This document shows, piece after piece, positions 28,881-30,061 of a stretch of 32,447 bases of DNA. A program made the translations under genes and the position numbers. Under the pieces are notes generated by a model. That model ran no database searches. It worked only from the letters and a program-made list of their open reading frames with translations, and was not told the DNA's origin. Within the stretch, counting starts at the first letter, position 1, and every line of letters begins with the position of its first letter. The stretch is from an uncultured Clostridia bacterium (GTDB taxonomy: Bacteria > Bacillota > Clostridia > TANB77 > CAG-508), in assembly GCA_944388695.1 (NCBI GenBank), contig CALXJT010000015.1, positions 1 to 32,447 of the forward strand, written 5' to 3'.

Positions 28881-28982
28881 TTTGTTTTACTTCCATATAT
28901 CACCATATTTATATCACAGATTTACTTTTTTCTCAACAAATTCACCAAAATTCGCATTAAATATATTAGATTTTTGAGCAAT

Positions 28983-29216
28983 AAAAATTTTAAAGTCGTT
29001 AGATACTATGGTTTATATGCTAGAGAACACAAACATTCTAGCCAAATATTTAAATTATTAAATCAAACTCAAATAGAAATCAGAGAACAATTAAGAAAGT
29101 GAAATCTTTCTATTGAATTATCTTTTGGATACAACCCAACAATTTTTGATTGTGGAGGACATTTTTTATTTTTTGAATTAAAAGTCCCCTCCAAAGTATT
29201 GCCAAATGTATTTTAA
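28983..29216 (+). pseudogene. C-terminal remnant of an IS91-family transposase
   Basis: Plus strand: FKVVRYYGLYAREHKHSSQI, a break at TGA (29100-29102, where Trp is expected in REQLRK-W-NLS), then IELSFGYNPTIFDCGGHFLF and FELKVP. This matches the end of IS91/IS801-type transposases (RYYGxYxR...LxFGYxPxxCxCGG). Only this last part is left, with no start. The TGA is a true stop because TGA ends other genes here. Confidence 0.8.
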
Positions 29217-29243
29217 ATCTATATAATATTTTTGGTGATTTTA

Positions 29244-29489
29244 ATGAATAAATATCCTTTTGCTAATGAAGTAAAGAAAATGAAAGATAATTTTAAAAGA
29301 ATGATTGATTCTATGTCTGATGATGAATTTTTTGATTTTATAGAATATATAAATGCTTGCACTGAAATCTTTAATGAAGATTACGATGAAGATTTTTGGT
29401 CTGGTGATGAAGGCTGGGAAGATGAAGCTGTTCAGTTCTATGGTTATAATCCTGATGATATTGAAGATGATGATACCTTACCATTTTAA
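29244..29489 (+). CDS. small acidic protein downstream of the transposase remnant, 81 aa
   Basis: Not named. Very acidic, with KMKDNFKRMIDSMSDDEFFD at the N-terminus and DEDFWSGDEGWEDEAVQFYG then YNPDDIEDDDTLPF at the C-terminus. The ATG at 29244 follows TTGGTGATTTTA, a usable ribosome site; an upstream GTG overlaps that site and is less likely. It starts 28 bases after the IS91-type remnant and may be the passenger ORF of that element. The frame is intact although its partner is broken. Confidence 0.65.
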   Translation: MNKYPFANEVKKMKDNFKRMIDSMSDDEFFDFIEYINACTEIFNEDYDEDFWSGDEGWEDEAVQFYGYNPDDIEDDDTLPF

Positions 29490-29702
29490 CTCAAAAAATC
29501 TATATTTTATTATGCCTCTTATTTTTTGTTCTTTTTACTTAAAAATAGAACTTTCCTATAATACAATAAAGAGCAATAATATAAAAATATATTATCACTC
29601 TTGAATCGAGCTATATGAAGTTCTTCATATATAGTTAGGTCTATTACCTAAAAATTAGATTAATCTATATTAATATTATATGTTGATTTCTATTTTCTAT
29701 GC

Positions 29703-29793
29703 AAAAAGAATAGGATTTCTCCTATTCTTAAATCAAACCTTATAACTTTCGTTATAAGTAGTACCACCAACAATGTGGTAAAATATTTTTATT
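29703..29793 (-). ncRNA. candidate small RNA gene of about 90 nt, unknown class
   Basis: On the minus strand a good promoter (29800-29827) is followed by no ORF but by three tidy hairpins. The first is TACCAC/GTGGTA (29762-29780), the second CTTATAAC-GAAA-GTTATAAG (29739-29758; a perfect 8-base-pair stem with a GNRA tetraloop). The third is AAGAATAGG/CCTATTCTT (29706-29729), followed by TTTTT as an intrinsic terminator. The predicted transcript begins near 29793. The order promoter, structured body, terminator is that of an independent sRNA. I cannot match it to a known RNA class; no repeat array or Cas gene is nearby to make it a tracrRNA. Confidence 0.55.
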
Positions 29794-29799
29794 AATTTA

Positions 29800-29827
29800 A
29801 TTATATCATATTTCTAGATAAAGTCAA
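29800..29827 (-). promoter_or_regulatory. promoter of the small RNA candidate
   Basis: TTGACT (29822-29827) and TATAAT (29800-29805), spacer 16 bases, on the minus strand. Downstream is AT-rich leader and then the three hairpins of the RNA candidate, with no ribosome site or start codon in frame with an ORF. Confidence 0.65.
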
Positions 29828-29870
29828 TCTTTTTTTTTGCTATTTTTTCTCCAAACATTATTATTTTTTT

Positions 29871-29896
29871 GTTGACAAATCGTTGACATTGTCAAC
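29871..29896. promoter_or_regulatory. GTTGACA repeat/palindrome cluster
   Basis: GTTGACAA (29871-29878) is followed 11 bases on by GTTGACATTGTCAAC (29882-29896), a 15-base palindrome made of the same half-site. Three half-sites in 26 bases look like a regulator binding site. It lies 45 bases upstream of the small RNA promoter and just after the remnant ending at 29903. Confidence 0.5.
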
Positions 29897-29902
29897 ATTA
29901 AA

Positions 29903-30061
29903 TTATACTACTCCACACACCATGTCAACTTCTATCGTTACTTTAATTTTATGATTTTCTATTCTTTTAATCTTATTTTTTCCTTTTCTCTCAAAACTAA
30001 CAAAATCCTCAAAAGCAGTAAATTCAACTATTATATCTAATTTTTGAGAGATAGCACCGAG
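29903..30061 (-). pseudogene. C-terminal remnant of an unidentified gene, related to 16314-16385
   Basis: After a TAG the minus strand reads LGAISQKLDIIVEFTAFEDF, VSFERKGKNKIKRIENHKIK, VTIEVDMVCGVV-stop. There is no start codon or ribosome site. The last part matches the remnant at 16314-16385 (DFV...NHKI..TIEVDM.C). The tail of some mobile or repeated gene is likely, but I cannot name it. Confidence 0.5.

Follow-up and report, generated by a model that had tools for sequence, protein, structure and literature searches.

Type III toxin–antitoxin systems (ToxIN, CptIN, and TenpIN) carry a structured RNA beside the gene for an endoribonuclease of the MazF/Kid fold, with repeated RNA units and an intrinsic terminator (PMC5086642). 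In the AbiF–RCd22 pair of Clostridioides difficile, two repeated RNA motifs lie beside the toxin, and the RNA acts in trans through direct RNA–protein binding (PMC12373285). The module described here would work most like these two (PMC5086642, PMC12373285). Its RNA part is formed by two small RNAs, RNA-A and RNA-B, on the minus strand of the window, by which we mean the whole 32,447-nucleotide stretch of an uncultured Clostridia bacterium that was analyzed. On sequence grounds, we consider it fairly likely that the two RNAs serve as the antitoxin in a type III-like module with an N-extended PemK/MazF protein as its toxin, and that the toxin has been lost in the window, leaving the pair solitary.

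As in ToxIN, CptIN, and TenpIN, a structured RNA partner lies by a gene of the MazF/Kid endoribonuclease fold, with an intrinsic terminator and, at co-directional loci, a second though diverged unit. However, the toxin belongs to PF02452 (PemK) and not to the ToxN/AbiQ family. In those systems, the RNA adopts a pseudoknot fold and neutralizes the toxin through direct binding. It lies upstream under one promoter, with a terminator between the RNA and the toxin, whereas here it lies downstream or is convergent and has its own promoter. The units also differ, in that they are approximately 85–90 nt long, have three hairpins, each carry their own terminator, and are sometimes single; co-directional loci have two diverged units with a terminator each, while convergent loci have one. 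By its toxin family and by the downstream position and separate promoter of its RNA, the module falls outside the named type III families. With AbiF–RCd22, it shares two repeated RNA motifs adjoining a toxin, but the AbiF toxin is of the Abi_2/AbiD/F family and the RCd22 RNA is upstream (PMC12373285). The type II systems MazEF and PemIK have the same toxin domain, but here there is no protein antitoxin gene and the toxin has an N-terminal extension of about 50 residues. We take the Rfam pemK RNA (RF02913) to be named for PemK genes and a possible published precedent for a structured RNA near them. It differs from the present RNA in sequence and length, and its covariance model left the window RNA unmatched and gave no match in genomes G000, G064, or G034. 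In G585, it has four copies, none with a PemK gene within 1.5 kb.

RNA-A (29703..29786, minus strand) is an 84-nt, three-stem small RNA with an intrinsic terminator at its end, supported by its fold, by covariance matches, and by covariation. Its promoter, TTGACT-16-TATAAT (TTGACT at 29827-29822 and TATAAT at 29805-29800, minus strand), agrees with the consensus at 11 of 12 positions, and no other site in the region scores better. On the same strand, stem 1 (29762..29780) has 6 bp, 29780-29775 with 29767-29762, and stem 2 (29739..29758) has 8 bp, 29758-29751 with 29746-29739, closed by a GAAA loop. The single-stranded linker GTTTGATTT (29730..29738, minus strand) follows and is kept in alignments of the A and convergent units. 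Stem 3, the terminator (29706..29729, minus strand), has 10 bp, 29729-29720 with 29715-29706, and then a T run; a simple terminator scan did not flag it, because the T run is partly counted within the stem. The folding energy is -26.9 kcal/mol, with z = -5.4 (RNAfold against dinucleotide shuffles, 0 of 200 equally good). The original prediction of a structured RNA behind this same minus-strand promoter is borne out by the fold and by covarying homologs (below); its three stems, GAAA loop, and T tail all stand, except that it had given the third stem 9 bp.

A second, diverged tandem unit in the window, RNA-B (29566..29657, minus strand), was overlooked at that stage. It follows the same three-stem plan with other stem letters and has its own terminator. 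The model R1, a covariance model built from the RNA-A sequence alone, scores it at 35.7 bits, and R2, the training rows of which included B units, at 69.5 bits. The TATAAT upstream of RNA-B (29675..29680, minus strand) scores 9.5 of 12, a level found in 10% of shuffles, and its -35 box is weak; a promoter of its own for RNA-B is uncertain. The whole RNA module (29558..29851, minus strand) is 94–97% identical to toxin-bearing genomes with otherwise unrelated flanks, and in G064 and G253 the matching stretch begins only a few codons from where the toxin gene stops.

Beyond RNA-B, R1 finds close homologs in congeneric species and in further genera, as well as the convergent units. By covariance models, the RNA family comprises 44 units (38 distinct) at 28 loci. 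When 18 units were aligned to the model, all 370 pair cells (100%) were paired, both-side changes occurred in 23 of 24 pairs, and the covariation score was 0.829; shuffles gave 0.231 ± 0.024, and slid structures did not exceed 0.157. For all 44 units (38 distinct), 99.3% of cells were paired, 23 of 24 pairs again had both-side changes (5 of 6 in stem 1, 8 of 8 in stem 2, and 10 of 10 in stem 3), and covariation was 0.792 against 0.245 shuffled. These values are to be read with the facts that the alignments were fitted to the structure, which favors it, and that related sequences inflate covariation counts. The modeled structure consists of nested stems. The A, B, and convergent units have differing stem sequences, and pairing is retained in each. 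Nearly every A or convergent unit is preceded by a TTGACA/T-16 to 18-TATAAT-like box, with 11–12 of 12 matches (at most 1.5% in shuffles). The original prediction had named compensatory changes in all three stems as its support, and these are seen.

With the RNA alone as query, a search of 390 genomes of the family with R2 found it in 26 genomes of 11 genera. Over 391 class-level genomes, R2 gave no match outside the home genus, though weak units adjoin the class-level toxin in G585. RNA-A has no Rfam match at gathering or permissive thresholds, and the family of RNA-A and RNA-B is absent from Rfam. Several candidate relatives were discarded. Plain DNA similarity returned only AT-rich chance matches to the RNA; of the exact hairpin-pattern matches in public collections, most were fortuitous ones within unrelated genomes, and only L036 and L055 were real; and weak R1 matches (below about 38 bits) outside toxin loci (L076-L097, of which L076-L078 were inspected) were judged to be chance terminators.

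In related gut-bacterial genomes, the RNA lies directly behind a PemK/MazF toxin gene. PF02452 (E 1e-18) is the only Pfam family above the cut-off in this protein, and an extension of about 50 residues precedes the domain. A profile of the toxin matched MazF structures at 4e-12, with no ToxN among the matches, and the protein would be classed as a MazF/Kid-like endoribonuclease from such comparisons. The RNA stands beside the toxin in two arrangements, a co-directional tandem pair or a single convergent unit with its own promoter. In G064, G253, G287, G155, and G300, the pair lies 32–83 bases past the toxin stop codon on the same strand. A toxin protein search of 287 genomes of the order found further complete toxins in G192, G034, G186, and G065, each followed by one opposite-strand, convergent RNA unit. 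These convergent units have the promoter TTGACA-17-TATAAT and their own terminator abutting the toxin end, and R1, built from the window unit alone, recognizes them. Blind R2 matches adjoin an intact toxin in G313, G348, G402, G455, G424, and G465; in G501, the adjoining toxin is cut by the contig end. As the RNA search finds toxins and the toxin search finds RNAs, the linkage holds in both search directions.

The RNA was present with 11 of 11 complete toxins from the protein search that had enough downstream sequence (G064, G253, G287, G300, G192, G034, G186, G065, G585 twice, and the Paraclostridium sordellii plasmid NZ_CP124284); G193 was left out of this count, as its sequence ends 56 bases past the toxin. 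Among toxins with enough downstream sequence, no complete toxin without the RNA was seen. The toxin was not found in phages or viral contigs, and the PemK loci of Bacilli plasmids (L164 and L165) have no such RNA. The closest plasmid relative of the toxin outside the order (49% identity) is on the 6.5-kb P. sordellii plasmid (L163), where the toxin and RNA pair are located between the replication gene (rep) and a caspase-family gene. The best two R2 matches on this plasmid (E 0.011 and 0.021) immediately follow the toxin as a tandem on its strand. G585, which belongs to a different family of the class, has two toxin copies with such units behind each (E 0.043). By score, the P. sordellii and G585 matches are weak (E 0.01–0.04), and it is position, strand, and tandem order that would carry the argument for them. 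In G585, NZ_CP124284, and several other loci, a TTGACA box falls within the last toxin codons, and the toxin C-terminus is LDI or LDM.

Since stem 3 acts as the terminator and, in convergent loci, directly meets the end of the toxin gene, the hairpins might be mere 3'-end or terminator structures of the toxin transcript, with no independent RNA. This is very improbable, because a near-perfect promoter is kept upstream of A and convergent units even without a toxin, stems 1 and 2 also covary, and the convergent units are on the other strand from the toxin.

The linkage is not absolute, as solitary RNAs without a toxin occur in the window, G056, G417, G166, G390, and others. A regulatory small RNA of the host, carried along with the toxin gene but without action on the toxin, would fit these frequent solitary copies and the units behind a HEPN gene at L155 and L156. 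However, the RNA is found next to the toxin, in either of two orientations, across about a dozen genera, and it accompanies every complete toxin found with enough flank, so that we regard a bystander role as quite unlikely. At both L155 and L156, a single family RNA unit lies 9 bases behind the HEPN-domain gene, itself after a nucleotidyltransferase-like gene, and these two genes are another type of toxin–antitoxin pair.

Returning to the RNA as antitoxin, it is also retained where the toxin is broken (by an internal deletion in G234 and as a remnant in G463) and where there is no toxin at all, as in G503 and in the window, G056, and G417. That the RNA outlives the toxin, while no complete toxin lacks the RNA, is an asymmetry typical of antitoxins. 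G216, where a deletion joins mid-toxin to mid-convergent RNA, is a decayed locus of the same kind. In the genome of the window, the best protein match to the toxin is an unrelated MazF (30% identity, E 2e-6). The most economical interpretation is that the window once had the toxin and has kept only the RNA pair. The suggestion that RNA-A came from a lost or undescribed element, as its RNA part, agrees with the findings, with the same pair behind a PemK/MazF toxin elsewhere and the toxin absent here.

In a type I/VIII-like arrangement, the RNA would act as antisense, pairing with the mRNA of the toxin to block translation or lower stability of that mRNA. A small RNA with its own promoter does adjoin the toxin gene, the convergent units reach or marginally overlap its 3' end, and the duplexes computed with the toxin start region are a little stronger for cognate than for non-cognate pairs (-22.9 versus -21.4 kcal/mol). 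However, that difference is well below the shuffled spread (mean -20.1, sd 3.9 kcal/mol), leaving no clear cognate antisense duplex signal at the toxin start region; the conserved sequence is mostly within stems, and co-directional tandem units cannot act antisense in cis. We consider antisense control unlikely.

The RNAs are probably the antidote of a PemK/MazF toxin without a recognizable protein antidote, and we infer that they neutralize it. A strong promoter of its own would keep the RNA in excess, and the RNA hairpins would bind the toxin and block the active site. The 156 small ORFs around 16 toxins include no shared protein-antitoxin ORF. Small-ORF clusters common to distant loci run antisense within the toxin gene, the remaining clusters occur in close relatives only, and a MazG-like ORF lies upstream of the toxin in one subclade only. 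An incomplete literature search turned up no description of RNA antitoxins that act on PemK/MazF toxins. Pipelines annotate these genes as type II PemK/MazF toxins, yet a protein partner is not visible. An RNA partner would explain such orphan toxins, bring the PemK family and a new gene order within the range of RNA antitoxins, and provide a ready-made test set. Solitary copies such as that in the window would then be natural RNA anti-addiction genes, and the window's pair could guard against incoming copies of the module.

Similar arrangements occur behind other N-extended PemK genes. In G070, G258, G245, and the second copy of G064, two near-invariant RNA units lie downstream of PemK while the flanks diverge, and three genomes of family f44 have a repeated CATACCTA hairpin downstream of an N-extended PemK. 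The 300 bases after N-extended PemK genes fold more stably than those after ordinary short MazF genes (median fold z -5.2 versus -1.6, p = 0.00015; with the present clade excluded, -4.5 versus -1.6, p = 0.003), a comparison that is indicative only, with mononucleotide shuffles, related loci, and small, non-random samples. The presence of different structured RNAs behind other N-extended PemK clades suggests a broader class. We see roughly even chances that N-extended PemK/MazF toxins in Clostridia have RNA antitoxins of clade-specific families, usually two downstream small RNAs with their own promoter and terminators, with solitary pairs serving anti-addiction.

A second PemK clade, marked by a VGVGKELCG motif (L172, L118, L119, and L122), has two other tandem structured RNAs downstream with their own promoter and terminators, which hardly vary across four genomes although the flanks differ. 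Those of L172 have no Rfam match, and R3, a model of the clade-2 RNA, had no match in 77 genomes, a sample without any known carrier. Further distinct repeated hairpin RNAs lie behind the N-extended PemK genes of L168-L170 and L123 (CATACCTA..TAGGAGACTATA twice; CGTAWTAAA units).

The original prediction had also placed RNA-A among mobile-element debris. The plus strand at 28968-29215 holds a remnant like the C-terminus of an IS91-type transposase, with an in-frame stop and no relative in 54 related genomes. This debris appears unrelated to the RNA, and a link between them was rejected, as other RNA loci are without an IS91 remnant. An 85-residue acidic ORF at 29232-29489 (plus strand) ends in DDDTLPF, like the C-terminal tip of a single-stranded DNA-binding protein, and has one weak relative (G002) in 55 genomes. 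At 29906-30060 (minus strand), there is a short-ORF remnant (..KIKVTIEVDMVCGVV) with an intact 61-residue relative 850 bases downstream of the G155 RNA pair; Pfam gave no match. A GTTGACA palindrome/direct repeat (29868-29894) stands just upstream of the RNA module, and the sequence upstream of the module is common only to the toxin-less G056.
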